Source: Crambe crambe (Eukaryota > Porifera > Demospongiae > Poecilosclerida > Crambeidae). Taken from it: a stretch of DNA of 64,000 nucleotides. This document shows positions 1 through 35,500 of this stretch, piece after piece. Every line of letters starts with the position of its first letter. Position 1 is the stretch's first letter. The translations under genes were made by a program, and so were the position numbers. The notes below the pieces were generated by a model. It made no database searches. It saw only the letters and a list, made by a program, of their open reading frames with translations, and had not been told where the DNA came from. The DNA lies in assembly GCA_963924555.1 (NCBI GenBank), contig OZ004592.1, positions 5,456,001-5,520,000 of the forward strand, written 5' to 3'.

Positions 1-1997
1 ATCGTCTGATTTGATATGCAAGAGAAATTAGACTCAATTTCAATGTTATGTCCATCCTTCACATATGCAGTTAATGTAGCCCCTACTTCATTCCCAAAAT
101 CGTCAAGTACTTGTACACCCAGTTCGATGAATTCCCCTGGAATCGCTTTCAAATGTTCATTCTTCGGTATCAGCTTAGTTCCCTCTGTTGCTATTTGATA
201 TTTGTCTTCTTTTTCGATCCCCATAATACCAGGGGGTTGGAAAATATCTGTGGTGTTTAAAGCCTGGTAGCTCCCTGCTGGTGTGCTCACCACTTGACAG
301 GGAATGACTGAGGTGGCGTAAATAGAGTTTCCTATGTTTGACCTTGCACTGTTCCCTTCGAAAATAAGAGTCGCAGTCCAGTTGGTGGTTGGTATGATTG
401 TAGAATTTTCCTTAGTATCGTATTGGAGAAAGCAACTCCGAGAAACAGTAAAATCTTTATCATCCACCAAATATGAATAGATAGCTCCACCCTTATCAAT
501 TGCAGTGTTATTCGAAAAAGTATATCTTTGACCTGCACCAACTAGCATAGATCCTGTTCCTATCAGTAATAGTGCTCCACCTTGGATCCCTTGGTTTCCT
601 GTGAAGGTTGCATTCGAATATGTAAAGTCAGCAACCCCATTAACTATCACTATAGCAGATCCATAGTTACCTTCAAATAGGACGAATGTCTCGAATACAA
701 CACTAACCAAGCTTGAGTATAGCGTGCCAGATCCAAATGATTTTTGTTTTCGTTTGTTATCTGAATATGTCTGTATCGAGTTATTGATAAACAAACAGTT
801 AATGAATCGTGGCTCTGGTAGATAAGCTGATTTAATTCTACTGAAGATATTTGGTGCAATGTCAATGGCTGATCCAGTGTGAGCAGAGTTGTTTGTCCAG
901 TTGCAGTTGTCGAATTGTATGGAGTTATTGTTGGGAATCTCTGAACGACTGGAAAAGAAGTAAGCTCCCCCACCAAGTTTTGCGCAGTTTGAGTCAAATG
1001 TGACTCTTACTAGGCTTATCTTGTGGTTTATTGCTTGCCCTATAAAATTTTCAAAAGACAGGTACACACCTCCACCACTTTGAGCTTTATTGGGACAGCC
1101 GTTATTGATGAATTCCGTGTCCTCAATCAGCACTTCATTGTCCCTGCCTCCTCCCTCAATTTCAGCTGAGAGGCCAGCTCCGAGAAAAGCAGAATTACTT
1201 ATAAAAGAGCAAACCTTCAAGATTACCTTCACCTCTGTTGCACTCAAAATGATGGTCATGCCTCCACCTCTGCCACTCCCACTTATGGGGACACCTTGAG
1301 GTGTAGAAAAGATGAAGTTGTATTCAGAACCATTTGCTGCATTCTGTGTGAAGTTGCAGTTTTCAAATGTGATTTCAGATGGCTTTATTTTATTACCTTT
1401 GACATAGAGTCCCACTCCATTCCCCCCATTGTCAAGGTTACCATCATCTTGCAGTGTGTTATTTATAAAGCTGGAGTTTATCACTTGCCATTGCATGTAG
1501 CCTTTTCCCTCCACATGATCGAATTGTATTCCACTTCCATTGCTGTGAGCTACAGTGATTCTGTGTATGGTGATCCAATCACAGTCCTTGAAGAAGACAG
1601 CAGCTCTTACTAGTTTGTGTGTAGTTTGCATGCTTGCTCCACAGCTCATGATGTCAATATCTTTAATGGTGATATTAGCCACTGACAAAAAGTTAATGCC
1701 TGATTTTCTTGAGTTGCATACAATTTGTGATCCCTCACCTAAAATGGCCATAGACTGAATGTTCTCAAATGTGACAATCCCATTAAGATGGAGAGAATGC
1801 ACTCTAATGAAGATCGTCACATCACTGCTTGCAAGAGTTGTCATATTATTCGAAATTTCTTTCAAAGAAAGAGGCTCACAGGTTGAGATGCTGGGTTCGC
1901 AACCTATTGTAAAAGTTACAGGGTCGTTAGGAGCACTTTGTTTCCCACAGACAATAACTGTTAGAGAAAGTGCCGCCACCAGTAGACTTAATGCCAT
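1..1997 (-). CDS. Beta-helix/polytopic membrane protein, copy A (3' end outside window)
   Basis: The minus-strand frame is open from an ATG at 1997 to the window edge (665 codons), so the signal peptide and most of the ectodomain are present and the neck and membrane domain are missing. The N-terminus begins MALSLLVAALSLTVIVCG, a clear signal peptide. It is followed by Asn/Gly-rich repeats with GGG-Y/F turns (such as GGGVYLSF and GGGAYFFSS) typical of right-handed beta-helix proteins, with many N-glycosylation sites. The first ~200 codons differ from the other copies, but the stretch at about 640-1300 is almost identical to copies D and E, so the gene looks mosaic. Function is unknown; I infer a secreted or surface ectodomain. 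The start is supported by its alignment with the start of copy B. Confidence 0.85.
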   Translation of the reverse strand, partial: MALSLLVAALSLTVIVCGKQSAPNDPVTFTIGCEPSISTCEPLSLKEISNNMTTLASSDVTIFIRVHSLHLNGIVTFENIQSMAILGEGSQIVCNSRKSGINFLSVANITIKDIDIMSCGASMQTTHKLVRAAVFFKDCDWITIHRITVAHSNGSGIQFDHVEGKGYMQWQVINSSFINNTLQDDGNLDNGGNGVGLYVKGNKIKPSEITFENCNFTQNAANGSEYNFIFSTPQGVPISGSGRGGGMTIILSATEVKVILKVCSFISNSAFLGAGLSAEIEGGGRDNEVLIEDTEFINNGCPNKAQSGGGVYLSFENFIGQAINHKISLVRVTFDSNCAKLGGGAYFFSSRSEIPNNNSIQFDNCNWTNNSAHTGSAIDIAPNIFSRIKSAYLPEPRFINCLFINNSIQTYSDNKRKQKSFGSGTLYSSLVSVVFETFVLFEGNYGSAIVIVNGVADFTYSNATFTGNQGIQGGALLLIGTGSMLVGAGQRYTFSNNTAIDKGGAIYSYLVDDKDFTVSRSCFLQYDTKENSTIIPTTNWTATLIFEGNSARSNIGNSIYATSVIPCQVVSTPAGSYQALNTTDIFQPPGIMGIEKEDKYQIATEGTKLIPKNEHLKAIPGEFIELGVQVLDDFGNEVGATLTAYVKDGHNIEIESNFSCISNQT

Positions 1998-2506: not shown

Positions 2507-5500
2507 CTATGACATAGTGATCGTGGATTTTTCACTATTCTCAAAAAAGCTGGTATCTTCTCTACCCACAAGCCTGTATGGGAGACTCTCTTCTATGGTT
2601 GCATTACTCTCACTTGCTGTGGAAGTCTTACGGTAGATCTTCTTCAAGATAATCCTCCCTCCTAATGGATCCTCCTTTGTACCCTTGCACACTGTCTTCC
2701 CCAGAATACAGACTATTGTATACAGTGTGATGTAGATGAGTGGCAGGTATATTAGGATCAGTTGAATTGCTCCTGTGGTGTTGATGCTGGCTCTAATTTC
2801 ATCAATACTTTGGCTCCTGTAAACTCTTACTTGGTAGTAGTGGACAGCGTTAAAGCCATTGATAACTATCAAGTTAGCTAGCAACAACCCATCCAAGATA
2901 TTGTGCCAGCGCTTTTGATAAGGCTGAAATAAGCTGTGTATGGTTAGTATTCCCACTAGTAGAGCCTGTACTATGCTGAAGAATGCATAATAGCTAGAGA
3001 CTGCAGCATATACGACTACAGCTGTCCAGCGATAGAAGAAATAGATACCAGCAAAGAACCTGAAGTCGTCTTTGAAGCTTCCTTGAAATGAGTCTAGCAG
3101 TGGCTTTAGAATGCCTATGCGGTTGAAACAGCGCACTATGCTGAGATCTTCCAGCTTGAAGAATGCAAACACGCGATTGAAAAGTGGATACACCAGGAGG
3201 ACCAGAGGAGGGATGACTCCAATGGTCAGCAGGATGAAGAAAGCTGGTAGCGCATATCGAAGGTGTTCATTGCTAAAGTACTCTACATTCCCATTGAACC
3301 AGACCCTGTGTAACGAGGTACCTTGAACTGTCAAATTTTGTCTGAGGGTTAACTTTTGGCGATAGAGAATGCTGAAAGATACTTTAATGCATTGTCCATA
3401 GCAAAGCACCAGGAAAGCTGAGAGTCCATGAATGACAGAGTTTCTGAGTGAAGTGATGGAATAGTAGCGTCCAAGGCATCGTGCTGCACAGTATCTCATG
3501 AAGAAGATGACACCCAGCACCAGCAACAAGGAGTAGGCAATCGTGATGTACTTGAATGACAACATGTCAAGAACAGAAGCATTTTCCCAGATACAAAAAG
3601 AGAGAGGTTCGATATTGAAGAAATCGAGATTGAAAAAACCATAAATCACCTTGTACACAGTACTTAACACAGTTATAGGTGGAGAGAAGGTAATGATGCT
3701 ACTTGTATTGATGAGAAGAGTGTCAAGAAGCTGGCTGAAGAGTACGAAACCGTTGACAGCTCCCGTGGTGAAACTGATGTTCAGAACCAGAACGAGAAGA
3801 AAAAGAACCGTGACTGGAACCAGCTCAGAGAGAATGTAGAAGAGCCATCCAATCTTACAGGAGTAAGGTTTGGTCTCATTGCAGTTCATGTTGGGGGAGT
3901 GATAATAATTGGTGAAGTTCTCTCTACACTCACCACAAAGCACTCCTTTCCTTTTCTTTCCACACATGGCCTCATCCAAGTCTGCTCCATCACTTGGAAG
4001 TCTCACTTGGTTCGTAGTCGTGAAGTCTGTCCCATTATAGTTGCAAAATTGCTCTGGGCATATTGAAGTGGCAAGTTGTTTTGAGTTTCGGTTATGATCA
4101 GTGAGGTTAACATATCCTGCCCAGAACCCAGGCATTAGATATGCTGTGTAACCTTGACAATCTAGTGTGCCAATATATGCATTGATATCACAAATGCACT
4201 TTTCTTGATCCAGTGTGTATCCTGGAGGACAGTGGAGGAGATCAACTGGAAGACCCAATGAATGCTTGCGGGAACCTAATGTTTGTAAAACAAGTTCTCC
4301 AGTTTCACCTTCCTTTCCAGTAAATTGAATAGTTTGATTGGGTATGCTGGAATATCTGGAGTCAACCATTATATTCCCCTTTCTCATATATGCAGTGAAT
4401 TTGGCTCCTACTTTATTCCCAAAATCATCAAGAATCTCCACCCCTAGCTCTATTGCTTTTCCTGGAATTGCTTTCAAGTGTTCAGAATTACTTGGAATCA
4501 GTATTGCTACTTCTGTTGATATATCGTTTGTATCATTACTGATCCCCACAATACCAGGTGCTTGGAAAATGTCAGTTACTTTCATAGCCTTAAAAATTCG
4601 ATTTGACGTGCTCACAACCTGGCATGGAATAACTGTAGTGGCGTAAATAGAGTTACCGATTTGCGATTTTGCATTATTTCCTTCAAAAGTAAGAGTTGCT
4701 GTCCAGTTGCTAGTAGGCAAGATTACGCGAGATTTATTTTCTTTACTCTTGTATTGAAGAAAACAGCTCCGAGAAACAATGACATCACTATCATCCACTA
4801 AACGAGAAAAGATGGCTCCACCTTTATCAATTGCTGTATTATTCACAAACTTGTACTCTTGGCCTGCACCGACTAGCATAGATGTTGTTCCTATCAACTG
4901 CATGGCTCCACCTTGAAGTCCCTGGTTTCTGATGAAGGTTGCATTCGAATATGCAAAGTTAGCAACCCCATTTACAATCATTATAGCAGAACCATAGTTA
5001 TCTTCAAATAAGACAGATGACTCAAATACAATACTGACTAGACTTGAGTATAAAGTACCAGATTCGTATGTTTTTTGGACTTGATGAACTGAAAGATTAT
5101 TACTTACTTGAATAGAGTTATTGATAAATGAACAGTTTCTGAATCGTGGTTTTGGTAAGTTACCACGTGATTCAGTTCTATAGAATATATCAGGTGTAAC
5201 ATAAACTGCAGACCCTATGCTGGCAGAGTTTTTCATCCATGAAGAGTCAGTAAATTGCATGATATTATTGTTAGGCATTTGTAATGGACTTGAAAAGAAG
5301 TAGATTCCTCCACCATACCCTGCACAGTTGTAATCAAATGTGACCCTTACCAGACTTATTGTGTGATTAGTTGCTTTCGTTAATCTTTCGAAGGATAGGT
5401 ACGCACCTCCACCACCTTGAGTTTCACTTGGACAGCCATTGGTGGCGAATACCGTGTCTTCAATTAACACTTCATAGTAGCTGCTCCTATTGCCTCCCTT

Positions 5501-6349
5501 TATTTGTGCCGAGAGCCCACCTCCTAGATAAGCAGAATTTTGTGTAAAAGAGCAACCCTTCAAGATTACCTTCACCTGTGCTCGGCCAGCAAGCAAAGTG
5601 ATACCCATCCCTCCACCTCTCCCATTCCCGTTTTTAGGCAAGCCCCCAGGTGTGGAGAAGAGAAAGTTGTATGCAATACCATTGGCTTTATTCTGTGTGA
5701 AATTGCAGTTTTCAAATATGATTTTAGACATGCCCACTGAATTTTTGACATATAATCTCACTCCATTACCACCATCAATCCAACCATATCTTTCTTGTAT
5801 GAGGCTTTGTAGTGTGTTATTCACAAAGCTGGAGTCAGTAACACGTAAATATCCTTGGGCATGATCAAAATGGAGTCCACTTCCATTGCTGTGAGCAACT
5901 GTGAGACACTGTATAGTTATTTGACTATAATTGCTGAAATAGATGGCACTTTGCACATTTTTATTACCAATATTCACCACTGTTCCACAGTTCACAATTT
6001 TAATATCCTCTATGGTGATGTGAGACACTGAGAGAAAGCTAAGACCAGATTGACTGGAATTGCAGGTGATCTGTGAGCCCTCACCTAAAATAGCCACGGA
6101 TGGAATGTTCTCAAATGTAGCTGTACTAGTGAGAGTGATGGATTCTGCTTTGATAGAGATAATAACACCTCGTGGCATGCTGGCATTGATCGAAATTGCA
6201 ATATCTTCCAAAGAAGAAGATTTGCAGGTAGAAATGCTGGGGTCACAGTCTACTGTGAACATGAGGTTAGTAGCATTATCTTCTGTCCCATACACAGCTG
6301 TAAGAGCAAGTGCTAGCAAATGGAGAACTGCTATGACCATTCTTCTCAT
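2507..6349 (-). CDS. Beta-helix/polytopic membrane protein, copy B (complete, intronless)
   Basis: Single-exon ORF of 1280 aa. The signal peptide (about 1-21) is followed by a Cys-containing N-terminal segment. A repeat ectodomain spans about 90-560, with glycine turns such as GRGGGMGITLL, LGGGLSAQIKGG, GGGGAYLSF, YGGGIYFFSS and KGGAIFS, as in pectin-lyase-like beta-helices. A second extracellular segment leads to a Cys-rich neck (about 705-830: CPPGYTLDQEKCICD, then CGKKRKGVLCGECREN). About eight or nine hydrophobic helices span 833-1216. The cytoplasmic tail contains SLPYRLVGREDTSFFENSEK, conserved in all copies. The architecture suggests a cell-surface receptor, adhesion protein or channel; no function can be assigned. 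The membrane half is nearly identical to D, E and F, while the ectodomain is much more diverged. Confidence 0.92.
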   Translation of the reverse strand: MRRMVIAVLHLLALALTAVYGTEDNATNLMFTVDCDPSISTCKSSSLEDIAISINASMPRGVIISIKAESITLTSTATFENIPSVAILGEGSQITCNSSQSGLSFLSVSHITIEDIKIVNCGTVVNIGNKNVQSAIYFSNYSQITIQCLTVAHSNGSGLHFDHAQGYLRVTDSSFVNNTLQSLIQERYGWIDGGNGVRLYVKNSVGMSKIIFENCNFTQNKANGIAYNFLFSTPGGLPKNGNGRGGGMGITLLAGRAQVKVILKGCSFTQNSAYLGGGLSAQIKGGNRSSYYEVLIEDTVFATNGCPSETQGGGGAYLSFERLTKATNHTISLVRVTFDYNCAGYGGGIYFFSSPLQMPNNNIMQFTDSSWMKNSASIGSAVYVTPDIFYRTESRGNLPKPRFRNCSFINNSIQVSNNLSVHQVQKTYESGTLYSSLVSIVFESSVLFEDNYGSAIMIVNGVANFAYSNATFIRNQGLQGGAMQLIGTTSMLVGAGQEYKFVNNTAIDKGGAIFSRLVDDSDVIVSRSCFLQYKSKENKSRVILPTSNWTATLTFEGNNAKSQIGNSIYATTVIPCQVVSTSNRIFKAMKVTDIFQAPGIVGISNDTNDISTEVAILIPSNSEHLKAIPGKAIELGVEILDDFGNKVGAKFTAYMRKGNIMVDSRYSSIPNQTIQFTGKEGETGELVLQTLGSRKHSLGLPVDLLHCPPGYTLDQEKCICDINAYIGTLDCQGYTAYLMPGFWAGYVNLTDHNRNSKQLATSICPEQFCNYNGTDFTTTNQVRLPSDGADLDEAMCGKKRKGVLCGECRENFTNYYHSPNMNCNETKPYSCKIGWLFYILSELVPVTVLFLLVLVLNISFTTGAVNGFVLFSQLLDTLLINTSSIITFSPPITVLSTVYKVIYGFFNLDFFNIEPLSFCIWENASVLDMLSFKYITIAYSLLLVLGVIFFMRYCAARCLGRYYSITSLRNSVIHGLSAFLVLCYGQCIKVSFSILYRQKLTLRQNLTVQGTSLHRVWFNGNVEYFSNEHLRYALPAFFILLTIGVIPPLVLLVYPLFNRVFAFFKLEDLSIVRCFNRIGILKPLLDSFQGSFKDDFRFFAGIYFFYRWTAVVVYAAVSSYYAFFSIVQALLVGILTIHSLFQPYQKRWHNILDGLLLANLIVINGFNAVHYYQVRVYRSQSIDEIRASINTTGAIQLILIYLPLIYITLYTIVCILGKTVCKGTKEDPLGGRIILKKIYRKTSTASESNATIEESLPYRLVGREDTSFFENSEKSTITMS

Positions 6350-7266: not shown

Positions 7267-10200
7267 CTGAATCAATTATATCAGGCGCAAGAAACAGGCA
7301 GTAGCAACCTCAAGTTCACGATAGACTGATCCTGCTAGGATTCAAACCTGCGATTCTTCTTCTTTGGAGACTATTGCAACAACTCCAGTGGAGCACTAGA
7401 TGTTACTATTTCTATCAGAGTGGCTTCTCTTAGTGTCAAAGGGTTGGCGACATTCAGGGACATTAAGTCGATAGTCATTCTTGGCGAAAACTTGCAACTA
7501 GTCTGTGACTCAAAAGGATCATCAGCACTCAGGTTTTTATCAGTGGAAAATGTCACTCTACAAGACATTGAAGTCATAAACTGTGGCACATTAGGGACTC
7601 CTAACAGTTCATATTCAGTGCAAACTGCCATTTACTTCAAAGACTACGACCAAATCACCATACGAGAGATCACTGTAGCTCAGAGCAACGGGTGTGGAAT
7701 CCATTTCGAACACACTAGAGGACACGTACATGTGATTAATTCTAATTTTATCAACAACACATTGCGAGAAGAAAAGAGAGGAGGAAATGGAGTGAGAGTT
7801 AATGTGACAGAGTCAGCAGATGCATCTGAAATCACTTTTGAGAACTGTAATTTCACACAGAATGTAGCAAACTATATTGAATACCACTTTATCTTCTCTA
7901 CTCTGGAAGGTGTACCTATCAGTGGGAGGGGCAGAGGTGGAGGGATGATTATCACTTTGAGAACCGGTGCAACAGAGGTGAAGGTAATCTTGAAGAGTTG
8001 CTCTTTTATACGTAATTCTGCTTTTGTTGGAGCTGGCCTCTCAGCTGAAATTGAGGGAGAAGGCAAGGACAATGAAGTGCCCATTGATCACTATCAAGTT
8101 AGCTAGCAATAACCCATCCAAGATATTGTGCCAGCGCTTTTGATAAGGCTGAAATAAGCTGTGTACGGTTAGTATTCCTACTAGGAAAACCTGTACTGCA
8201 TTGAAGAATGCACTGTAGCTAGAGACTGCAGCATATACGACTACAGCTGTCCAGCGATAGAAGAAATAGATACCAGCAAAGAACCTGAAGTCGTCTTTGA
8301 AGCTTCCTTGAAATGAGTCTAGCAGTGGCTTGAGCATGCCTATGCGGTTGAAGCAGCACACTATGCAGAGATTTTCCAGCTTGAAGAATGCAAACACGCG
8401 ATTGAAAAGTGGATACACCAGGAGGACCAGAGGAGGGACTGCTCCAATGGTCAGCAGGATGAAGAAAGCTGGTAGTGCATATCGAAGATGCTCATTGCTA
8501 AAATACTCCACATTCCCACTGAACCAGACCCTGCGTGGTGGAGTACCTCGAGAAGTTGAATTTTGTATTCTGGTTCTCAATGTTTTGCCATATAGAATGC
8601 TGAAAGACACTTTAATGCATTGTCCATAGCAGAGCACCAGGAAAGCTGAGAGTCCGTGAATGACAGAGTTTCTGAGTGAAGTGATGGAATAGTAGCGTCC
8701 AAGGCATCGTGCTGCAAAGTACCTCATGAAGAAGATGACACCCAGCACCAGCAACAAGGAGTAGGCAATTGTGATGTACTTGAATGACAGCATATCAAGA
8801 ACAGAAGCATTTTCCCAGATACAGAAAGAGAGAGGTTCGATATTGAAGAAATCAAGATTGAAAAAACCATAAATCACCTTGTACACAGTACTTAACACAG
8901 TTATAGGTGGAGAGAAAACAATGATCCCACTTGCTTCAATTAAAAGAGAGTCAAGAAGCTGGCTGAAGAGTATGAAACCGTTGACAGCTCCCGGGTGAAA
9001 CTGATGTTCAGAACCAGAACGAAAAAGAAGAGAACTGTAACTGGAACCAGCTCAGAGAGAATATAGAAGAGCCATCCAATCTTACAGGAGTAAGGTTTGG
9101 TCTCATTGCAGTTCAAGTTGGGGGAGTGGTAATAAACGGTGAAGTTCTCTCTACACTCACCACAAAGCACTCCTTTCCTCTTCTTCCCACACATGGCTTC
9201 GTCCAAGTCTGCTCCATCTCTTGGAAGTCTCACTTTGTTCAACTCCTTAGTAGTAAGATCAGTGCCATTATAGTTGCAAAATCCCTCTGGACATATTGAA
9301 GTGACCAGCTCTTTAGAGTTATGGCCATCATCAGTAGCATAAACATAGCCAGCCCAAAATCCAGGAGTAAGAAAAGCTGTATAATCTTGACAGTCTTGCA
9401 TGCCAACATAGGCGTAGGCATCACACATGCAACTTTCTTGTTCCAGTTTATACCCTGGAGGACAGTGGAGGAGATGGACAGACAGATTTAGTGAGTATTT
9501 CCTAGATCCCGATGTTTGTAGGACAAGTTCTCCAGTGTTGCCTTCCTTTCCACAAATTTTGATTGTTTGATTCCGGACCCAAGAAGAATTGGAGTCAACT
9601 TTTATGTCACCACATGCCACAAATGTAGTCAACGTGGCCCCTACTTCGTTCCTGAAATCATCAAGAATTCTCACCCTAACTCTATTTGTTTTCCTAGGAT
9701 TGCTTTCAAGAGGCTATTTTTTAGAATTAGCTTAGTTCCTTCAGTTGCTATTTCATTCCTATCGTCTTTATGAATCCCCATAATCCCAGGGGGTTGGAAA
9801 ATGTCTGATATGTTAACAGTCTGATACCCTGCTGGTGAGCTCACCACTTGACAAGGAATGACAGAGGTGGCGTAAATAGAGTTACCTATGTTTGACCTTG
9901 CACTGTTCCCTTCGAATGTGAGAGTCACAGTCCAGTTGGTGGTTGGAAAGATATGTGGTGTTCTTCATTTCGTTTGCTTCTGTATATGAGAAAACAACTC
10001 CGAGAAACGGTAAAGTCTTTATCATCCACTAAATATGAGTAGATTGCTCCACCTTTATCAGTAGCTGTGTTGTTTACAAACATGTATTCTTGCCTGCACC
10101 GACTAGCATGGATGCCGTTCCTACCAATTGTATGGCTCCTCCTTGAACTCCAGTATTTCCAATGAAGGTTGCATTCAAATATACAAAGTCGGCAATCCCA

Positions 10201-11040
10201 TTTACGATCACTATAGCCGAACCAAAGTTGTTGATGAATGTGACAGATGACTCGAATGCAACACTGACCAAACTTAGGTATAAAGTACCAGTTCCAAATG
10301 ATTCTAAATTTTGTGAATTTTCACTTAGTATAGTGTTATCGATAAATGAACAGTTTATGAACCGTGGTTTGGGTAAATAACCAAGTTCATTTCTACTGAA
10401 GATATTTGGTGTAATATCTATGGCTGATCCAGTGTGAGCAAAGTTATTTTTCCAAGTGCAGTTGTCGAATTGTATGGAGTTATTGTTGGGCATCTCGGAC
10501 CGATTTGAAAAGAAGTAGGCTCCCCCGCCTACTTTTGCACAGTTTGAGTCAAATGTGACTCTTACTAGGCTTATCTTGTGGTTTGTTGTTTGCCCTACAA
10601 TTCCAAAAGACAAGGACACACCTCCACCACTTTGAGCTTCACTTGGACAGCCGTTATCGATGAATTCCGTGTCCTCAATCAGCTTCACTGCTATCCACTA
10701 CTACCAAGTAAGAGTTTACCGGAGCCAAAATATTGATGAGGTTACAGCTAACATCAACACCACAGGAGCAATTCAACTGATCTTGATATACCTGCCACTT
10801 GTCTACATCACACTGTATGCAATAGTCTGTATTCTGGGGAAGACAGTGTGCAAAGGTAGAAAGAAGGATCCATCTGGAGGGTGTTTTGCCTTGAAGGAGA
10901 TCAGCAAGAAGATCTACCATAAGAGTTTCTCTGAAGAGAGCCTCCCTTACAGGCTCGTCGGTAGAGAAGATACCAGCTTTTTTGAGAACACTGAAAACTC
11001 CAAGGACATTATTGCACACTGCATTATTGACACTTACTGA
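7267..11040 (+). pseudogene. Beta-helix/polytopic membrane protein, copy C (broken by internal inversion and frameshifts)
   Basis: The 5' third (7267-8080) reads on the plus strand like D and E but lacks the initiator region and carries an early frameshift (GACTGATCC for GATTGTGATCC). The middle part (8081-10,683) is the same gene in reverse orientation. The 3' end (10,684-11,040) returns to the plus strand and encodes the last helix and tail. Inside the inverted part there are single-base losses at about 8,990 (CTCCCGGGTGAAAC), 9,945 and 10,095, so several partial ORFs replace one frame. The parental gene was clearly full-length. The locus cannot make the normal protein. Confidence 0.9.
8081..10683 (-). 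other. Inverted internal segment of copy C
   Basis: On the plus strand, copies D and E read GAAGTG-CTGATTGAGG and ATCAATGG-CTTCACTGC. In copy C these joints read GAAGTGC-CCATTGATC and CCTCAATCAGC-TTCACTGC. This is what a simple inversion of the segment between them produces. The breakpoints carry a short inverted match (GCTGATTGA and GCCATTGAT). No target duplication or foreign DNA is visible at either joint. Confidence 0.9.
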
Positions 11041-12298: not shown

Positions 12299-12695
12299 CT
12301 GCAATACTGTAACAGAGACAATATGAAGTGTATTGTAATAGTGTCAGGCCAACAGGAAAATGGCTGGCCAAACACTAATGTCCAGACAAAACTCCTGTTT
12401 GGCCAGTCATGGCCTGTGACACTGTTTGAAATCAGTGGAAATTCAGTGCAGAATGTCTAACCATTGTTGAATTGTCCAGCTAAAGTAGGTCAATTATGAA
12501 ATGTTATCAGTTGTTATGCAACCAAACCGGAAGTCAATTGGGCCCCATCATTAAATTTAATTTTTACCAGAAATGTCAATTCTTGCCGTTGGTGCGTTCG
12601 TTCATCATAATGAATCACAAATGTTTGATGTATGACTCTCAGCCTTGATTTGGCTGTGTTACGATACATTCATTCATTTTTTATTTCAGGGTAGC

Positions 12696-12838
12696 TATCC
12701 CTAATGAAAGAGGCCCGGGCCTTGATGAAAGAGGCCTGATAAAAGAGGGCCTGATAAAAGAAGCAATGAAAGAGGCCCTGATGGATGAGGGAGGCCCAGA
12801 TGAAAAAGGCCCCAATGAAAGAGAAATAGGTCCTGATA
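12696..12838. repeat. GATGAAAGAGGCCC minisatellite upstream of gene D
   Basis: Degenerate ~15-bp repeats around GATGAAAGAGGCCCT, 190-330 bp before the start codon of D. Related arrays precede E and F at similar distance. One frame reads as ERGPD-like repeats, but its length varies and I do not consider it a protein. Confidence 0.75.
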
Positions 12839-21926: not shown

Positions 21927-24900
21927 ATGGCTGAAGTTGGCAGACTGATGCTGATCTACTGCTTGTTGGCACTTGCCATAATATTCACATTTGCAGAAGA
22001 GACCGGCAGTAGTAGCAACCTCAAGTTCACAATAGATTGTGATCCTGCAAGGATTGCAACCTGCGATTCTTCTTCTTTGGAGACTATTGCAACTTCCATC
22101 AACTCTAGTGGAGCATTAGATGTCACTATTTCTATCAGAGTGGCTTCTCTTAGTGTCAAAGGGTTGGCAACATTCAGGGACATTCAGTCGATAGTCATTC
22201 TTGGCGAAAACTCGCAACTAGTCTGTGACTCAAAAGGATCATCAGCACTCAGGTTTTTGTCAGTGGAAAACATCACTCTTCAAGACATTGAAGTCATAAA
22301 CTGTGGCACATTAGTGAGAGGAGGGAGTCCCAACAGTACATATTCAGTGCAAACTGCCATTTACTTCAGAGACTACGACCAAATCACCATACGAGAGATC
22401 TCTGTAGCTCAGAGCAACGGGTGCGGAATCCATTTCGAACACACTAGAGGACACGTACATGTGATTAATTCTAATTTTGTCAATAACACATTGCGAGAAG
22501 AAAAGAGAGGAGGAAATGGAGTGAGAGTTAATGTGAGAGAGTCTGCAAATGCGTCTGAAATCACTTTTGAGAACTGTAATTTCACACAGAATGTGGCAAA
22601 CGGTATTAAATACGACTTTATCTTCTCTACATTGGAAGGCGTACCCATCAGTGGGAGGGGCAGAGGTGGAGGGATGATCGTCACTTTGAGAACCGGTGCA
22701 ACAGAGGTGAAGGTAATCTTGAAGGGTTGCTCTTTTATAAGTAATTCTGCTTTTCTCGGAGCTGGCCTCTCAGCTGAAATTGAGGGAGGAGGCAGGGACA
22801 ATGAAGTGCTGATTGAGGACACGGAATTCATTGATAACGGCTGTCCAAGTGAAGCTCAAAGTGGTGGAGGTGTGTACCTGTCTTTTGAAAATTTAGGACA
22901 AACAACAAACCACAAGATAAGCCTAATAAGAGTCGTATTTGACTCAAACTGCGCAAAAGTAGGCGGGGGAGCTTACTTCTTTTCCAGTCGGTCCGAGATG
23001 CCCAACAATAACTCCATACAATTTGACTACTGCACATGGATAAATAACTCTGCTCACACTGGATCAGCCATTGATATCACACCAAATATCTTCAGTAGAA
23101 ATGAACTTGGTTATTTACCCAAACCACGATTCATAAACTGTTCGTTTATTGAAAACACTATATTAAGTGAAAACCAAGAATCATTTGGAACTGGTACTTT
23201 ATATTTAAGTTTGGTCAGTGTTACATTCGAGTCATCTGTCATGTTCATCAACAACTTTGGTTCTGCTATAGTGATTGTAAATGGGATTGCCGACTTTGTA
23301 TATTCGAATGCAACCTTCATTGGAAACACTGGAGTTCAAGGAGGAGCCATAGAGTTGGTAGGAACGGCATCCATGCTAGTCGGTGCAGGCCAAGAATACA
23401 TGTTTGTAAACAACACGGCTGCTGATAAAGGTGGAGCAATTTACTCATATTTAGTGGACGATAAAGACTTTACTGTTTCTCGGAGTTGTTTCCTCCAGTA
23501 TAGAAGCAAACAAAATAAAGAACACCGCATAACCTTTCCAACCACCAACTGGACTGCGACTCTCACATTCAAAGGGAACAGTGCAAGGTCAAATATAGGT
23601 AACTCTATTTATGCCACCTCTGTCATTCCCTGTCAAGTGGTGAGCTCACCAGCAGGGAAGCATCAGACTGTTAACATATCAGACATTTTCCAACCCCCTG
23701 GAATCATGGGGATCCGTAAAGATGATAGGAATGAAATAGCAACTGAAGGAACTAAGCTAATTCTAAGGAATAGCCTCTTGAAAGCAATCCCAGGAAAACA
23801 AATCGAGTTAGGGGTGAGAATTCTTGATGATTTCAGGAACGAAGTAGGGGCCACGTTGACTGCATTTGTGGCACATGGTGACATAAAGGTTGACTCTATT
23901 TCTTCTTGCATTCGGAATCAAACAATCAAAATTCATGGAAAGGAAGGTAACACTGGAGAACTTGTCCTACAAACATTAGGATCTAGGAAACGCTCACTAA
24001 ATCTGTCGGTCCATCTCCTCCACTGTCCTCCGGGGTATAAACTGGAACAAGAAAGTTGCATGTGTGATGCCTACGCCTATGTTGGCATGCAAGACTGTCA
24101 AGATTACACAGCTTTTCTTACTCCTGGATTTTGGGCTGGCTATGTTAATGCTACTGATGACTCTAAAGAGCTGGTCACTTCGATATGCCCGAAAGGATTT
24201 TGCAAATATGATGATACTGATCTTGTTACCAAGGAGTTGAACAGAGTGGGGCTTCCAAGAGATAGAGCAGACTTGGATGAGGCTATGTGTGGGAAGAAGA
24301 GGAAAGGAGTGCTTTGTGGTGAGTGTAGAGAGAACTTCACCGTTTATTACCACTCTCCCAACTTGAACTGCAACAAGATCAAACCTTACTCCTGTAAGAT
24401 TGGATGGCTCTTCTATATTCTCTCTGAGCTGGTTCCAGTTACGGTTCTCTTCTTTCTTGTTCTGGTTCTGAACATCAGTTTCACCACGGGAGCTGTCAAC
24501 GGTTTCATACTCTTCAGCCAGCTTCTCGACACTCTTTCAATTGAAGCAAGTGGGATCATTGTTTTCTCTCCACCTATAACTGTGTTAAGTACTGTGTACA
24601 AGGTGATTTATGGTTTTTTCAGTCTCAATTTCTTCAATATTGAACCTCTCTCCTTCTGTATCTGGGAAAATGCTTCTGTTCTTGATATGCTGTCATTCAA
24701 GTACATCACAATTGCCTACTCCTTGTTGCTGGTGCTGGGTGTCATCTTCTTCATGAGGTACTGTGCAGCACGATGCCTTGGACGCTACTATTCCATCACT
24801 TCACTCAGAAACTCTGTCATTCATGGACTCTCAGCTTTCCTGGTGCTCTGCTATGGACAATGCATTAAAGTATCTTTCAGCATTCTCTATGGCAAAACTT

Positions 24901-25760
24901 TGAGCACCAGAATACAAAATTCAACTTCTCAAAGTACTCCACCACGCAGGGTCTGGTTCAGTGGGAATGTGGAGTATTTTAGCAATGAACATCTTCCATA
25001 TGCACTACCGGCTTTCTTCATCCTGCTGACCATTGGAGCAGTCCCTCCCCTAGTCCTCCTGGTGTATCCACTATTCAATCGCGTGTTTGCATTCTTCAAG
25101 CTGGAAAATCTCCGCATAGTGCGCTGTTTCAACCGCATAGGCATGCTCAAGCCACTGCTAGACTCATTTCAAGGAAGCTTCAAAGACGACTTCAGGTTCT
25201 TTGCTGGTATCTATTTCTTCTATCGCTGGACGGCTGTAGTCATATATGCTTCAGTCTCTAGCTACAATGCATTCTTCAATGCAGTACAGGCTTTCCTAGT
25301 AGGAATACTAACCGTACACAGCCTATTTCAGCCTTATCAAAAGCGCTGGCACAATATCTTGGATGGGTTGTTGCTAGCTAACTTGATAGTTATCAATGGC
25401 TTCACTGCTATCCACTACTACCAAGTAAGAGTTTACAGGAGCCGAAATATTGATGAGGTTACAGCTAACATCAACATCACAGGAGCCATTCAACTGATCT
25501 TTATATATCTACCTCTTGTCTACATCACACTGTATGCAATAGTCTGTATTCTGGGGAAGACAGTGTGCAAGGTTACAAAGGAGGATTCATCTGGAAGGGG
25601 TTTTGCCTTGGAGATCAGCAAGAAGATCTACCATAAGAGTTTCTCAGCAAGTGAGAGTGATGCCAATTCCGAAGAGAGCCTCCCTTACAGGCTCGTTGGT
25701 AGAGAAGATACCAGCTTTTTTGAAAACACTGAAAACTCAAAGGACATTATCGACACTTAG
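21927..25760 (+). CDS. Beta-helix/polytopic membrane protein, copy E (complete, intronless)
   Basis: Single-exon ORF of 1277 aa, closely similar to D along its whole length: signal peptide, FTIDCDPARIATC mature start, glycine-turn repeats, Cys-rich neck, eight or nine helices and the tail (SLPYRLVGREDTSFFENTE). It differs from D by scattered substitutions and a few codon indels, such as loss of a short stretch near ENTILSENQESF and SPAGKHQ for SPAGYQ. Its upstream region carries a transposon absent from D. Function is unknown. It probably is, or recently was, functional because the frame is intact. Confidence 0.93.
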   Translation: MAEVGRLMLIYCLLALAIIFTFAEETGSSSNLKFTIDCDPARIATCDSSSLETIATSINSSGALDVTISIRVASLSVKGLATFRDIQSIVILGENSQLVCDSKGSSALRFLSVENITLQDIEVINCGTLVRGGSPNSTYSVQTAIYFRDYDQITIREISVAQSNGCGIHFEHTRGHVHVINSNFVNNTLREEKRGGNGVRVNVRESANASEITFENCNFTQNVANGIKYDFIFSTLEGVPISGRGRGGGMIVTLRTGATEVKVILKGCSFISNSAFLGAGLSAEIEGGGRDNEVLIEDTEFIDNGCPSEAQSGGGVYLSFENLGQTTNHKISLIRVVFDSNCAKVGGGAYFFSSRSEMPNNNSIQFDYCTWINNSAHTGSAIDITPNIFSRNELGYLPKPRFINCSFIENTILSENQESFGTGTLYLSLVSVTFESSVMFINNFGSAIVIVNGIADFVYSNATFIGNTGVQGGAIELVGTASMLVGAGQEYMFVNNTAADKGGAIYSYLVDDKDFTVSRSCFLQYRSKQNKEHRITFPTTNWTATLTFKGNSARSNIGNSIYATSVIPCQVVSSPAGKHQTVNISDIFQPPGIMGIRKDDRNEIATEGTKLILRNSLLKAIPGKQIELGVRILDDFRNEVGATLTAFVAHGDIKVDSISSCIRNQTIKIHGKEGNTGELVLQTLGSRKRSLNLSVHLLHCPPGYKLEQESCMCDAYAYVGMQDCQDYTAFLTPGFWAGYVNATDDSKELVTSICPKGFCKYDDTDLVTKELNRVGLPRDRADLDEAMCGKKRKGVLCGECRENFTVYYHSPNLNCNKIKPYSCKIGWLFYILSELVPVTVLFFLVLVLNISFTTGAVNGFILFSQLLDTLSIEASGIIVFSPPITVLSTVYKVIYGFFSLNFFNIEPLSFCIWENASVLDMLSFKYITIAYSLLLVLGVIFFMRYCAARCLGRYYSITSLRNSVIHGLSAFLVLCYGQCIKVSFSILYGKTLSTRIQNSTSQSTPPRRVWFSGNVEYFSNEHLPYALPAFFILLTIGAVPPLVLLVYPLFNRVFAFFKLENLRIVRCFNRIGMLKPLLDSFQGSFKDDFRFFAGIYFFYRWTAVVIYASVSSYNAFFNAVQAFLVGILTVHSLFQPYQKRWHNILDGLLLANLIVINGFTAIHYYQVRVYRSRNIDEVTANINITGAIQLIFIYLPLVYITLYAIVCILGKTVCKVTKEDSSGRGFALEISKKIYHKSFSASESDANSEESLPYRLVGREDTSFFENTENSKDIIDT

Positions 25761-25861
25761 CTAGCTGATGAATACTTATTTACATAATAATTGTGTGCCT
25801 TTTTTCCAACTATTCATAATACAACCCTGTCAGTTGACATGACCTAATTTTTGTAATTCAC

Positions 25862-25939
25862 ATTTTTCTCCATGTTTCCCTGTAGTTTGAGAACTTCTGC
25901 CCTTTGCTTCTTCACCAGAACCTCTTGCTTCTCATTTTC
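25862..25939 (-). pseudogene. CCDC186 exon 6 copy
   Basis: Full-length copy of exon 6 with its acceptor preserved, downstream of gene E. It lies outside the living CCDC186 transcription unit, which ends at 27,136. Confidence 0.85.
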
Positions 25940-26399
25940 CTGCACATAATGACATAGCTAGAGCTGTTTAAATCAAGTGGATTACTTAGTAAAACCACCC
26001 AGTAATCTTGAGAGCTAGAATTCTGTACAATATAGCTAATCATGTTAACTATCCAGTAAACTATCAGTAATCTTGAAAACTACGAAATCATAAACTTGAG
26101 TGGCTATTGTGCCTGTTTCATAATGATGGATAAAAAGATAGCTATGGGATCGTCTCAGTTCAGAAGGAAAATGCTTATCCAGAGTTTTGCATAATGTAGC
26201 ACAGTGCTAATCTCGCAAGCCAGACCCCTTACTGGTATACCCAACCCACTAGCACAATGTGACAATGTCTCAAGGTGTGGAATCAGTCCATCAGTTTTGT
26301 ATGCAAAAAAAATCTCTCGTGTACATAGCTTCACAGTATCATCACTAGTTATGGCCCACCCCATGATTTATAGCTCTATAGAATACCAGTTATGGCCCA

Positions 26400-26945
26400 C
26401 CTGCATGGTGAAATCTTTACTAGAACCAGCTCAGAAAAATAATAAAAGAGCCATCCAGAGCTATAAGGTTTGGTCTCGTCACAGCTTAAGTTGGGTGAGT
26501 GATAGTAAGTGAAGATCTCTCTACACTCACCACAAAGCACACCTTTCTTTTCTTCCAACACATGGCCTCATCCCACAAGTCTGCTCCATCTCTTGGAAGT
26601 CTCACTTGGTTCACAGTCGTGAAGTTGGTGCCATTAGCTATAGTTGCAAAATTGCTCTGGGCAATTGAAGTGGCAAGTTGTTTCAAGTTTTGGTCATGGT
26701 CACATATCCTGCCCAGAACCCAGGCATTAGATATGCTGTAGTCTTATCAATCTGATGTCACAAATGCATTTTTCTTGATCCAGTGTGTATCCTGGAGGAC
26801 AGTGGAGGAGATGAACTGGACGACTCAGTGAATGTTTGCGGGAACCTAATGTTTGTTCTCCGATTTCATCTTCCTATCAAATAGTTCAATTGGGTACATT
26901 ACACTGGAATATCTGGAGTCAACCATTATATTCCCCCTTCTCAAA
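26400..26945 (-). pseudogene. Receptor-family fragment (neck region, copy B type)
   Basis: Eroded minus-strand relic of the neck and preceding region (VRLPRDGADLWDEAMC, GVLCGECREIF), with frameshifts. It is paralogous to 17,520-18,150 but lacks the 53-bp insertion. It lies about 200 bp beyond the 3' end of CCDC186. Confidence 0.85.
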
Positions 26946-29505: not shown

Positions 29506-29542
<37 letters not shown>

Positions 29543-32500
29543 CTTGCTCCTTACTTTCTGTTTGTGCTGGAGTACTTCTTCTTGAGATATGTTGTGAGCA
29601 GTCTTTGTGAGTTCTAGCTCCTTAACAGTGAGTTCATGGAGCTCATGCTGATCTGCTATTTCTTGTTCCTGTTGCTTCAGCTCCTCCTCTGTCTTCTTCA
29701 ACTTGATGTCCAGTGTGTTTGAGCGCATGTCTTCAGATTCCTACAAGTATATAAAACTTGCTATCATATAATGAGAAATCTCGTTCATGGTGTTAATGCA
29801 CTAAAACAAGGGAATCTTCACACCCCCATGGAAATGTTACCCCACGGAAATTCATGCCATATGCATATGTATCTCCTACAATCTTAACATTTGGGATTGA
29901 GTCCTCGACTACATAAACTAACACAACTGGGGGTCCAGAGAGGAGGGGAGGGAGAAGGGAAGGGGATGGGGGAGGAGGAGGACAGGAGAGGAGGGGAGGG
30001 AGAAGGAAAGGGGATGGGGGAGGAGGAGGACAGGAGAGGAGGGGAGGGAGAAGGGAAGGGGATGGGGGAGGAGGAGAACAGGAGAGGAGGGGAGGGAGAA
30101 GGGAAGGGGATGGGGGAGGAGGAGGACAGGGGGAGAAGGGAATGGGAGGGGACAGTGGAGGAGGGGAGGAAGAAGGGAAGGGAAGGGGATGGGGGAGGAG
30201 GGGGACAGGAGAGGAGGGGAGGGGACAGGGGATTGTTTTAACCTGATACTGCTGAATCATTTGCTTCAAGTCGGCTCTGATCTGCTCTCCTTCCTCTCTG
30301 GCCTGCTTCAACTTCTTAGTCGTCACTTCCAACTGCGACTTCACATTCTGCAGCCATGCACAGACAGGAGACAGATCACATCACTTCCACACACTACATA
30401 TCTGCTAGTTGATTATAGCTGTGACCCTTTACCAATCTAACCTACAATGTACAGCTGCCACGTAGCATAAACTTTCGTTGCTTCAACAAACACATTGTTG
30501 GTATAAAGCTAGTGTAAAATTTTGTGGTTTTGCCATATAGCTAAATTTACTCCATTTACTCCATGATCTTCCCCAAAATAAAGTAGTACTATAACCTAAT
30601 GTAGCTACAATGAGATACCTTGTGTGCTTCGGTCTCTGACTTCAGCTTATTCTGGGCCCACTTCAGTTTGATGTTCAGAGAGCTCACTTCTTCCTTCTCC
30701 TTTGACAAGTCCTGAGTCAGCTGACTGCACAGAGATTTCTGCAATACACATGGCAAGTGTAACAGAGGAAACTAGGGAAACTAGGGCGGCTAGGGCTAGG
30801 GCTAGGCCATTTTCCTGCTGTCCTGACACTATTACAATAGAAAGATGTGTGTATAAAAGTAGGGCAGCCCTAATGAAAGAGGCCCTGATGGATGAAAGAG
30901 GCCTTGATGAAAGAGCGGGCCCCAATGAAAGAGAAATAGGCCCTGATAACATTGTATGTTAAATACTGTAATTTTATTGCTTCAATCATAAGCACAGCAG
31001 TCCCAAGATTCATACCTAATGTAACTGGTTATTGGGACTCAAGAAGTGAAAAATAAAAGTCATCGATTCTGAATACAGTCCAAGTAGTTCAGCTCGTAGC
31101 AATGGCTGAAACTGGCAGACTAATGCTGATCTATTGTTTACTAGCAATTATATCAGGCACATTCGCAGAAGAGACCGGCAGTAGCAACCTCAAGTTCCCA
31201 CCTATAACTGTGTTAAGTACGGTGTACAAGGTGATTTATGGTTTTTTCAATCTTGATTTCTTCAATATCGAACCTCTCTCTTTCTGTATCTGGGAAAATG
31301 CTTCTGTTCTTGATATGCTGTCATTCAAGTACATCACAGTTGCCTACTCCTTGTTGCTGGTGCTGGGTGTCATCTTCTTCATGAGGTACTGTGCAGCACG
31401 ATGCCTTGGACGCTACTATTCCATCACTTCACTCAGAAACTCTGTCATTCATGGACTCTCAGCTTTCCTGGTGCTCTGCTATGGACAATGCATTAAAGTG
31501 TCTTTCAGCATTCTCTATGGCCTAACATTGAGAACCAGAATACAAAATTCAACATCTCAAGGTACTCCACCACGCAGGGTCTGGTTCAGTGGGAATGTGG
31601 AGTACTTTAGCAACGAACATCTTCGATATGCACTACCAGCTTTCTTCATCCTGCTGACCATTGGAGCAGTCCCTCCTCTGGTCCTCCTGGTGTATCCACT
31701 TTTCAATCGCGTGTTTGCATTCTTCAAGCTGGAAAATCTCCGTATAGTGCGCTGTTTCAACCACATAGGCATGCTCAAGCCACTGCTAGACTCATTTCAA
31801 GGAAGCTTCAAAGACGACTTCAGGTTCTTTGCTGGTATCTATTTCTTCTATCGCTGGACGGCTGTAGTCGTATATGCTTCAGTCTCTAGCTACGATGCAT
31901 TCTTCAATGCGGTACAGGCTTTCCTAGTAGGAATACTAACCGTACACAGCCTATTTCAGCCTTATCAAAAGCGCTGGCACAATATCTTGGATGGGTTGTT
32001 GCTAGCTAACTTGATAGTTATCAATGGCTTCACTGCTATCCACTACTACCAAGTAAGAGTTTACAGGAGCCGAAATATTGACGAGGTTACAGCTAACATC
32101 AACACCACAGGAGCCATTCAACTGATCTTGATATACCTGCCACTTGTCTACATCACACTGTATGCAATAGTCTGTATTCTGGGGAAGACAGTGTGCAAAG
32201 GTAGAAAGAAGGATCCATCTGGAAGGAGTTTTGCCTTGAAGGAGATCAGCAAGAAGATCTACCATAAGAGTTTCTCAGCAAATGAGAGTGATGCCAATTC
32301 CGAAGAGAGCCTCCCTTACAGGCTCATTGGTAGAGAAGATACCAGCTTTTTTGAAAACACTGAAAAACTCAAAGGACATTATCGACACTTAGCTAGCTGA
32401 TGAATACTTATTTACATAATAATTGTGTGTGCCTTTTTTCCCAACTATTCATAATACAACCCTGTCAGTTGACATGACTTAATTTTGTATTACTCACATT

Positions 32501-35500
32501 TTTTTCCATGTTTCCCTGTAGTTTGAGAACTTCTGCCCTTTGCTTCTTCACCAGAACCTCTTGTTTCTCATTTTCCTGCACATAATGACATAGGGCTATT
32601 TAAGGGTGGTGGCACATCCCACCCACACATGGTTGCTAAGGGGTCATATCTCCAAAACTACTTGCACCATAGACTTTAAACTGCACATGGCTATAAAGCA
32701 ACTTAGTAATACTACACACACAAAAAAAGAAGAAGAAAGGTCAAATCCTACAGGTGCTATGAACAGTTTTCTAATCCAAACTATAAAGCACTACTTCTCA
32801 CCAACCAAAGCTTCTTAGTAGCCCTCTCTACAAAATTACAGAAGGATTTGTTGGTATCTTCTTTACTTTTTGACTTCCCAAAAGTGAGTATTTAAGTTTC
32901 TGGGCTAAATCGAGAAGCAAAATAGATATCAACAAACCCTTTTGTAATTTTGTAGAGAGTGGTGCTAGAAATCAGCCAGTGAAGTTTGGTAGGCCAAAAA
33001 TCAGCCACTTAATTCCAGCGGTCAGTGAGAAGCAATGCTTTTTATCTCCAAAGAGTAAAACGACTCATAGCACCTGTACGAATTAACCTTTTTCTTCATT
33101 TTTAGTGTGTGCATTAGTGATATACTACTTTATAACTATGTGCAATTTGAAGTCCATAGCTATAGTAATTTTGGAGTTATGTAAGAAAGACTAAAATTTA
33201 ATTGTTAGCACGTGCGTTGCTATGTGCTACCACCCTTAAATCAAGCAGATTACTTAGCAGTAATCTTGAGAGCTGTATAATATAACTATTCAGTAAACTA
33301 CCAGTAATCTTGAGAGCTATAGGATTCTGTACAATATAAAGTATCAGTAATCTTGAGAGCTAGGATTTTGTACATACTATTCAGTAAACTATCAGTAATC
33401 TTGAGAGCTAGGATTTTGTACGATATACTATTCAGTAAACTATCAGTAATCTTGAGAGCTAGGATTCTGTACAATGTAATCATGTTAACTATTCAGCAAA
33501 CTGTCAGTAATCTTGAGAGGTAGGATTCTAACTATTCAGTAAACTATCAGTAATCCTGAGAGCTAAAATCAAAGTCAGTAATCTTGAGTAACTATTCTGC
33601 CTATGTTTCATTTTGATGGATAAAAGTTCAGAGGGAAAATCTCCTTATTCCTTATTCAGAGTTTATAGTATAGCACAGTGTCTCGAGGTAATTTCTTCCT
33701 CGATGTAGTCTATCAGTTTTGAATGTAAAAACTCACCTTCACGGTTATCATCACAAGTTATAGCCCACCCACATGATGAAAATATTTTAAGTATTTCACC
33801 TTAGTGAGTTCTTTTACTCTCTTCTCCTTCTCTGTGACCTGGTCTATCAGATTCCTCCGTTCTTCCTGCAAGACGGCCAACTTTTTAATCACTCCACCTT
33901 TCTCCTTGATAGCGTCATCACATAGTTTGGTGACCTGTGGGCAAAACTCGACAAATTTCACCTCACACAGACAAATTAAGTCTTGGGGGGGGGGGGGGGG
34001 GGTATATTTCCTTTTTAAGTAACAATATTTATCGGAATGGCACTGTGTGTGTAGCTGGCATCTTTGTTACCCATTATTATTTTACCTGGTCAATCTTTAA
34101 CTTGAGTTCCTTCTCCAACTTCTGTGTCCCGTCCGCTGCCTTTTCTCGCTCTAACTCCAAGTCTTCAATCTTCTCCAGGTGAGTCAAGCACTTCATTTCC
34201 AACTAAACGAAAGCAAAAAAAGGTCATACAATCCCTAAACCATCAAGTATCTCTGCTAGGAGGCTGGTTTACAGGTTGTTTTTTTTTTTGGTTTTTTTTT
34301 TGTTATAAAGCCTTTACAAGTTAGATGCCTGAGTACCCTTTATATGTATAACTACTGTGACCTAGACTTGTGTCCAGGAGACTTGTGACCTAGACTTGTG
34401 TCCAGGAGACTTGTGACCTAGACTTGTGTCCAGGCTTGGATAGAGGTTAACTGTAACCTAGACCTGTATTCAGAGGTCCATCCAATATACTATTCTGGTT
34501 AACTGCAACAAACCACTGAGCACAAACCACAAATTGAAAAGGGAAAAAATTCTTTGCTTCTAACAACCATTTAATAACTATGCCTTGCAAAGAGGGAAGA
34601 TTTAACCCTACATTATCATGGAAGAGTACTGTGCTCACCTCTTTGGCTACCTCTTGAAAAGATACTTCCTATGATAGAGCAGAGAGTGAATCAAAGAAAG
34701 CCAACAGTAACACTAAACAATACACACATACCTTCTCTTTCCCAATGGCTAACTGCATCACTAACTCAGCCTTTTCCTTCTTCAACTGCTCTATTTTTGC
34801 CAGCAGGTCTTCTGAACAGCTGCAATAATGTATAGTATCACATGAGCAGAATACAATGAGTATTAGTACATACAATACATAATACATTACTTATTCTATC
34901 ATGTTGAACAGCTGCGAAATTGCAATGAATTTCCATCATGGTACACCTCTGCTTGTCTAGGGTTTTGTCCTGACATATTTGATACTTCTACGGAAACCAT
35001 ACAAGGGGGCTTTTGGGAAAGATAAGGGAGAGGGGGAGGGGGGAAATGATCGGTCCATAAGAAAAACTGACCTGATAAATGGGACTGACCTGACAAACGG
35101 GATTGACCTGATAAGATGGGACTGACCTGACAAATGGGATTGGCCTGAAGCATAATGAAATTTTTGTGGGAAAAATTTGTGGTTTAAAATTTTAAATCAT
35201 GAAAATTTTGCCCACCACAAAAAAAGCACTACATTAAAATATCCACCAATATACTTACATGTGGTCCTCACTACTCTCTCCACACTCTCCTGTTGCTTCT
35301 TTCTCGTTAATACCAGCCACACACACAGACAAAACAGCCCCCTTTGGCTGCACTACACCATTAGTAGTAACCCCTTCATTTCTGGCTGTAACCTCTTCAT
35401 GACTGTTGTTTGGTATTGCTAAATCAGTTCTGTCCTGTGGTGACCTGTCATTTAGCTCCTCCATAGATTGTTGATGAGTTACCAGTAGAGTTCTACTGGG

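Follow-up and report, generated by a model that had tools for sequence, protein, structure and literature searches.

A large, clustered family of single-frame beta-helix and multi-pass membrane proteins in the sponge Crambe crambe

Introduction

What kind of protein is encoded by the array of long open frames in the first 33 kb of this stretch of the genome of the sponge Crambe crambe, and what might it do? The stretch, here called the window, comprises 64,000 nucleotides of contig OZ004592.1 (C15:5456001-5520000; the genome measures 143.1 Mb and has 119 contigs). An initial annotation described its array as unassigned proteins that join a beta-helix-like ectodomain to a polytopic membrane part. 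Here we report that the array belongs to a real multi-copy family of this architecture, without a named function, encoded at no fewer than 383 places genome-wide. Our preferred reading, which we regard as evenly poised, is that these genes form a very large family of surface receptors, clustered and encoded in single frames, which would combine recognition or adhesion with signal transduction and exchange sequence between paralogs by gene conversion.

Results

Architecture of the window proteins

Three copies in the window are intact. Copy B (2507..6349, minus strand, 1280 amino acids (aa)), copy D (13031..16885, plus strand, 1284 aa), and copy E (21927..25760, plus strand, 1277 aa) each appear in the list of open reading frames as one stop-free frame; when positions 1-33000 were shuffled 40 times, stop-free runs reached at most 199 codons. 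The annotated two or three intact, intronless genes of 1277-1284 aa are thereby confirmed at the level of coding sequence. Upstream of D, a pyrimidine-rich tract at 12671-12689 ends in CAG and may mark the acceptor site of an intron in the 5' untranslated region; "intronless" therefore holds for the coding sequence only. A fourth copy, A, is cut by the window edge: the N-terminal part, with signal peptide and beta-helix ectodomain, occupies 1..1997 on the minus strand in a frame open to the edge, and in the genome C15:5454188-5457985 matches B residues 8-1274 within a stop-free frame of 1295 codons.

B, D, and E have in common an apparent signal peptide, an ectodomain of FxxN/GGx repeats, a Cys-rich neck (CPPGY...GVLCGECREN), and the tail SLPYRLVGREDTSFFEN. 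As judged from sequence and structural model, the architecture is almost certainly a signal peptide, then a right-handed beta-helix spike whose FxxN/GGx coils are Pmp-like, and after the Cys-rich neck a module of several hydrophobic helices with a short tail. In D, all on the plus strand, the right-handed parallel beta-helix covers residues about 30-515 (13118..14575), the neck (CPPGY ... GVLCGEC ...) residues about 702-826 (15134..15508), the membrane module positions 15500..16672, and the tail motif positions 16799..16849.

The outer domain was found to be spanned by a regular parallel beta-helix, as is required of a pectate-lyase-like fold. In the ectodomains of A, B, D, and E, FxxN occurs 10-11 times (2.5-3.1 on average in shuffled sequence) and GG[AG][ILVMY] 5-6 times (about 0.2 in shuffled sequence). 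The Beta_helix model PF13229 (cut-off 25.9 bits) matched copy B at 33.7 bits and copy E at 27.9 bits, and the POMP_repeat model TIGR01376 (cut-off 15) matched copy D at 16.8 bits. Chlam_PMP stayed under its cut-off in A, D, and E, and gave no match in B. The label "unassigned" thus has to be withdrawn for the outer domain, whose fold is known, and stands for the membrane module, for which curated family models gave no match above cut-off.

Hydropathy of D gave nine hydrophobic helices downstream of the neck, in agreement with the eight to nine annotated. From hydropathy, charge, and the pattern of glycosylation sequons we infer nine helices with the N terminus outside and the C terminus inside. 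When 11 diverse membrane modules (18-41% identical to D, one 89%) were aligned, 15 columns were invariant. Five of these lie in the neck, and another five (P1081, D1084, R1095, G1099, and R1105 in D) run from the predicted cytosolic loop between transmembrane segments TM5 and TM6 into TM6. Models of the 7tm class gave no match at E up to 10 with five membrane-module sequences, and sequence searches of the PDB gave either no match or a single weak one (E 0.7 and E 0.26), which we take as chance. The fold of the module may be new; similar multi-pass modules presumably occur elsewhere among animals and protists, in uncharacterised proteins.

The tail was annotated as conserved. Within the window this is so: SLPYRLVGREDTSFFEN is present in five copies with a single residue difference, V to I in copy F, in spite of synonymous changes, of which B and D show five with no amino-acid change. 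It is restricted to the window subfamily, and most other family tails differ.

Distribution of the family in the genome

Three membrane modules, two from long forms and one from a short form, served as queries against the genome (150 matches listed, the best 150 of 151, and 91, respectively). Each search scores its best candidates only, and family totals are consequently lower bounds; of merged matches, the cleaner was retained. The membrane module is encoded at at least 383 distinct places on 20 contigs. At least 206 of these places carry stop-free frames of at least 1100 aa (median 1264.5, range 1115-2035), although the mere length of a frame that holds the membrane module does not prove a beta-helix, and most frames are known by length only. 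Other clean frames measure 700-1099 aa at at least 25 places, 540-660 aa at at least 88, and remaining sizes at at least 49, while at least 15 of the 383 places contain in-frame stops.

The family is strongly clustered. Two thirds of the places (254 of 383) fall into 30 clusters of at least three members with gaps of up to 30 kb, in comparison with a mean of 6.3 and a maximum of 19 clustered places in 200 trials of random placement. The largest cluster holds 51 places (C6:1.84-2.18 Mb). A family subcluster also lies about 164-188 kb to the left of the window (C15:5268373-5291935).

Members differ in their outer part. L118 (C20:4647700-4654500) is a 2035-aa single frame with a very long beta-helix, scoring 128.9 bits with PF13229; further long frames are those at C10:5404371, of 2031 aa, and at C16:2490910, of 1835 aa. 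At the other extreme, the 576-aa short form L119 (C3:8333600-8336300) consists of an apparent signal peptide, the neck, the membrane module, and an LPYRL-containing tail. Thirteen members, several of them partial sequences, were scanned with family models. Seven (L107, L110, L114, L115, L116, L117, and L118) reached the cut-off of Beta_helix or Chlam_PMP, L117 exactly at it, and Chlam_PMP was at or above its cut-off in six (L107 and L114-L118). The remaining six (L076, L099, L105, L109, L113, and L119) stayed below both.

The neck touches a domain of unknown function, DUF7630 (PF24633), which likewise has the Cys-rich pattern G-x-LCG-x-C. Five places in the genome, in stop-free frames of 1227-1306 aa, were flagged as exceeding its cut-off, and none in 14 control genomes. 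By hmmscan, three of the five scored 22.1-24.2 bits against a cut-off of 27, and DUF7630 is therefore better taken as a link to the family than as clean membership; the neck of copy B scored 12.4 bits.

Probable exchange of sequence between paralogs

The annotation saw an outer domain that varies above a membrane module that stays constant. Identities in the window bear this out, since B and D (72% identical over the whole protein) agree at 63% in the outer and 90% in the membrane part. Across the neck of this pair, however, synonymous divergence (dS) also drops about five-fold, from about 1.0 to 0.21. Because the contrast in identity tracks synonymous divergence, the constant membrane half points to exchange of sequence by gene conversion or recombination. 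A segment scan delimited low-dS tracts at residues 774-1251 in B-D and 797-1251 in B-E, each reached by 0 of 300 shuffles; in D, the tract shared with B extends over 15350..16783 (plus strand), with dS of 0.15 inside and 0.60 outside. Separate low-dS tracts, again reached by none of 300 shuffles, were found at residues 247-386 in A-D and 247-395 in A-E. No conversion tract was detected by the scan in A-B (19 of 300 shuffles) or D-E (258 of 300).

Some pairs of a C16 cluster show the same pattern, as in L076-L077 with dS of 0.32 in the outer and 0.01 in the membrane half. In the C6 cluster (L097/L100/L103 versus L101/L102/L104/L106), the pattern is reversed, with dS of 0.50-0.71 in the outer and 1.25-1.61 in the membrane half, so that constancy of the membrane half is not general. 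The difference between halves was reached by 0 of 2000 permutations in L076-L077, L097-L101, and L100-L104. Among 81 pairs with membrane identity of at least 0.6, outer dS was more than twice membrane dS in 25, the opposite held in nine, and the rest differed less than two-fold. The low-dS tracts thus very probably reflect gene conversion between paralogs, and the two halves of a gene can have different histories. Synonymous constraint on the membrane half is an unlikely cause of its low dS, given that D-E lacks the contrast (432 of 2000 permutations) and the C6 cluster reverses it. A swap of modules, considered as a conflict of topology in the C6 cluster, was not shown: the membrane data are compatible with the outer-domain grouping (approximately unbiased test, p 0.283), and the outer data reject the membrane-like grouping (p 0.014), which was chosen after the identities were known.

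Selection on the two halves

The initial annotation took the contrast between halves as what a recognition family would look like, and named absence of expression together with relaxed selection in all copies among the findings that would speak against its proposal. Relaxed selection was not observed. The ratio of nonsynonymous to synonymous divergence (dN/dS) in the window is 0.23-0.33 for the outer half, similar to the 0.19-0.30 of the membrane half, and the contrast is therefore no signature of selection for diverse recognition. In the genome, 69 pairs had dS of at least 0.05 in both halves, after exclusion of ten duplicate or truncated loci and of L119, which is too short. None of the 69 reached a dN/dS of 1; the medians were 0.29 (outer) and 0.18 (membrane), and the outer value was the higher in 66, in a set whose pairs have members in common and are not independent. 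Both halves are under purifying selection, and the family is therefore not a relic. Positive selection on the outer domain was considered and is unsupported, dN/dS being below 1 in every pair tested.

On a finer scale, 40-codon windows with dN above dS numbered 6 of 124 in D-E, 3 of 62 in A-D, 2 of 61 in A-E, 2 of 123 in B-D, 2 of 122 in B-E, and 0 of 61 in A-B. Most of them rest on very few changes; the most distinct one falls within the cytosolic linker, around residues 1200-1250. Loops and strands of the ectodomain are nearly equal in amino-acid identity except in A-B. Their dN/dS is about equal in B-D, B-E, and D-E, and loops are the higher in the three pairs with A (0.42-0.49 versus 0.20-0.25).

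Other copies and neighbouring features of the window

The annotation counted at least six members of full architecture. Six larger copies do exist, of which only B, D, and E are complete within the window, A being cut by the edge, C a pseudogene, and F deleted. Copy C (7285..11013, mixed strands) carries an inversion, frameshifts, and stops. Its outer piece (7285-8088, plus) and C-terminal piece (10654-11013, plus) flank an inverted middle (8081-10683, minus; residues 298-1163) in an otherwise collinear gene, and one piece contains 10 in-frame stops. The inversion breakpoints share only short sequence, so that ordinary end-joining is the simplest reading. Copy F (31102..32400, plus strand) is a 432-aa open frame, in which deletion of residues 35-886 has joined the signal peptide to residue 887 (junction 31197/31198); the ectodomain, the neck, and the first two helices are gone, and the later helices and the tail are retained.

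D and E, whose proteins are 94% identical, lie in a 5.5-kb direct duplication (12470..17949 and 21360..26856, both plus, 91.1% identical) with common flanks. Because the flanks are common within one duplicated block, these copies arose by duplication of DNA, and an origin as retrocopies is rejected. Tail to tail with them stand two relics of the neck only. One, found by sequence comparison within the window, is a frameshifted remnant of a B-like copy (17540..18133, minus), and its counterpart lies in the second block (26412..26867, minus). Array spacers at 29938-30229 and 6872-6958 hold similar GGGAG-rich tandem arrays, and Rfam gave no match in the window.

Beyond the array, the window contains an Argonaute gene (ArgoL1, PAZ, Mid, and Piwi) with one 824-codon open frame at 37249-39723, and parts of an NSD-type histone methyltransferase (PWWP, PHD cluster, AWS, and SET) in two long open frames at 40161-45936. 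The statement that other genes of the genome have many introns could not be substantiated, as the AGO-type and NSD-type genes also contain open frames of 737-866 codons. A 3.2-kb segment at 51962-55174, repeated at 58609-61761 with about 97% identity, looks like a mobile element; next to its first copy, the open frame at 55200-56201 matched no Pfam family.

Comparison with known systems

The outer fold and its repeat class are already known. Chlamydial polymorphic membrane proteins (Pmp) have the same repeat class (Chlam_PMP / POMP) and a beta-helix fold. They end in a C-terminal autotransporter domain (PMC6701047), where the sponge proteins have hydrophobic helices instead; autotransporter models gave no match in family-model scans of the window proteins. 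RbmB, AlgE4, phage tailspikes, and the PfbA adhesin, which bind or cleave polysaccharides, are also right-handed beta-helices, at 6-14% identity among the matches listed, and are not known to have a membrane module.

A parallel in a eukaryote is offered by Trichomonas vaginalis G3, for which 48 Pmp-like proteins are reported, some of which raise adhesion, with tails that can carry endocytic motifs (PMC6701047). They resemble the sponge proteins in outer FxxN/GGx repeats, a membrane segment, a cytosolic tail, and membership of a gene family; they often have one transmembrane helix and an NPx[YF] tail, in contrast to about nine hydrophobic segments here. The sponge proteins also differ in the Cys-rich neck and in their tails, SLPYRL (YRLV) in the window and different in other subfamilies. 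The parallel is one of analogy, not of homology of the membrane half. Clustered protocadherins and other tandem receptor arrays, although different proteins, are likewise tandem copies homogenised regionally by gene conversion. There the constant part is homogenised, whereas in the sponge family either half can be.

Viral, prokaryote, and plasmid scans yielded no relative (best tblastn E 0.16 over 70 pattern loci), with short patterns that do not establish absence. Among the best pattern matches, on our own reading of the frames, L017 looks phage-like and that in L040 falls inside an NAD-synthetase-like gene; that in L049 covers 19 residues with D. PHROGs gave no match, and no paper on the family was among the best-ranked literature matches listed. 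Passages retrieved from PMC5450542, PMC4302439, PMC4432959, PMC12716839, PMC7385117, and PMC12465263 do not mention the architecture under the terms used.

Discussion

If the family is one of surface receptors, the glycosylated beta-helix spike would present many surface loops and bind polymers or proteins; putative ligands are glycans or proteins on the surface of microbes, food particles, or neighbouring cells. The Cys-rich neck would relay force or a conformational change to the helical module, a conserved loop of which would couple to the cell. The tail, varying by subfamily, may set trafficking, coupling, or partners; the YRLV of the window subfamily resembles what we take to be a YxxPhi sorting signal. 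The family would grow by tandem duplication, lose members by deletion and inversion, and exchange sequence between paralogs by gene conversion. A role in binding or recognition, argued by analogy, falls just short of an even chance. Signal transduction by the membrane module is a more tentative proposal; the module would transduce rather than simply anchor because its densest run of invariant residues outside the neck spans the predicted cytosolic loop into the next helix.

Several results weigh against a receptor family of this kind. The ectodomain gave 251 Foldseek matches at E of 10 or less and none at E of 0.001 or less. Structure prediction of the membrane module returned a confidence (predicted local distance difference test, pLDDT) of 32 and no usable model, and sequence searches found no PDB relative of the module, which leaves the helix count as a prediction and a signalling fold as a proposal. 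L119 demonstrates that the module can occur without a beta-helix. Separate histories of the halves in the C6 cluster rest on depth of divergence, in topologies without clear conflict. There is no dN/dS sign of the diversifying selection that many recognition families show. Finally, the Trichomonas Pmp-like proteins are reported mainly from internal compartments and not from the plasma membrane (PMC6701047).

An adhesive or structural surface protein, whose beta-helix holds cells to the matrix or to each other above a module that is an outsized anchor, is in our judgement doubtful. Anchoring needs one helix only, invariants in modules of 18-22% identity are densest just where a predicted cytosolic loop enters the next helix, and a spike-free short form exists. 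That short form, which keeps both module and LPYRL tail, would suit an ion channel or transporter with an opening tuned by the outer domain, as would the conserved charged residues that this polytopic module has close to the membrane; no channel relative appeared in Pfam or PDB searches, nor did a fold model emerge, and we consider this explanation unlikely. A tethered carbohydrate-active enzyme, in which the beta-helix cuts or epimerises polysaccharides, is very unlikely. The beta-helix is common to binders and enzymes alike, and no lyase or hydrolase family model scored. Four catalytic signatures of such enzymes (GHG, NTD, DPH[ED], and W[IV]DH) are absent from the N-terminal 700 residues of A, B, D, and E, which is a weak check, and an RIK motif occurs once, in A.

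The broken copies C and F, the neck relics, the places with in-frame stops, and the at least 49 clean frames that are neither 540-660 nor at least 700 aa long would be expected of a mostly functionless expansion, in which copies persist through duplication and drift. Such an expansion is nevertheless highly improbable in view of the number of stop-free frames of at least 1100 aa, dN/dS below 1 in 69 of 69 usable pairs, and the purely synonymous changes in the tail motif of B and D. Least credible of all is an origin from bacteria, whether as contamination or through recent gene transfer. Matches to Pmp-like repeat models and the lack of introns are compatible with it. The same window, at 5.46-5.52 Mb of its contig, carries Argonaute, NSD-type SET, and PWWP/PHD genes, which indicate a eukaryote and suggest an animal, and the prokaryote, viral, and plasmid scans that were made found no relatives.

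How simple animals without adaptive immunity distinguish self, symbiont, food, and pathogen is an open question. With at least 383 loci and at least 206 long single frames, the surface-receptor family proposed here is comparable in scale to large receptor repertoires, and its members, if expressed at the surface, are directly testable candidates. They also offer a natural example of paralogs with a different history in each half, and a membrane module to which no solved structure is related by sequence. A bolder proposal, which we put forward with the balance well against it, is that they form an undescribed receptor superfamily of an early-branching animal, with several hundred single-frame genes that join a beta-helix like those of bacterial adhesins to a membrane signalling module, and with halves to which gene conversion between tandem copies has given separate histories. 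If true, the sponge would possess, encoded in its genome, a repertoire for recognising microbes or non-self cells that has no relation to the repertoires built on immunoglobulin domains, leucine-rich repeats, or G-protein-coupled receptors.

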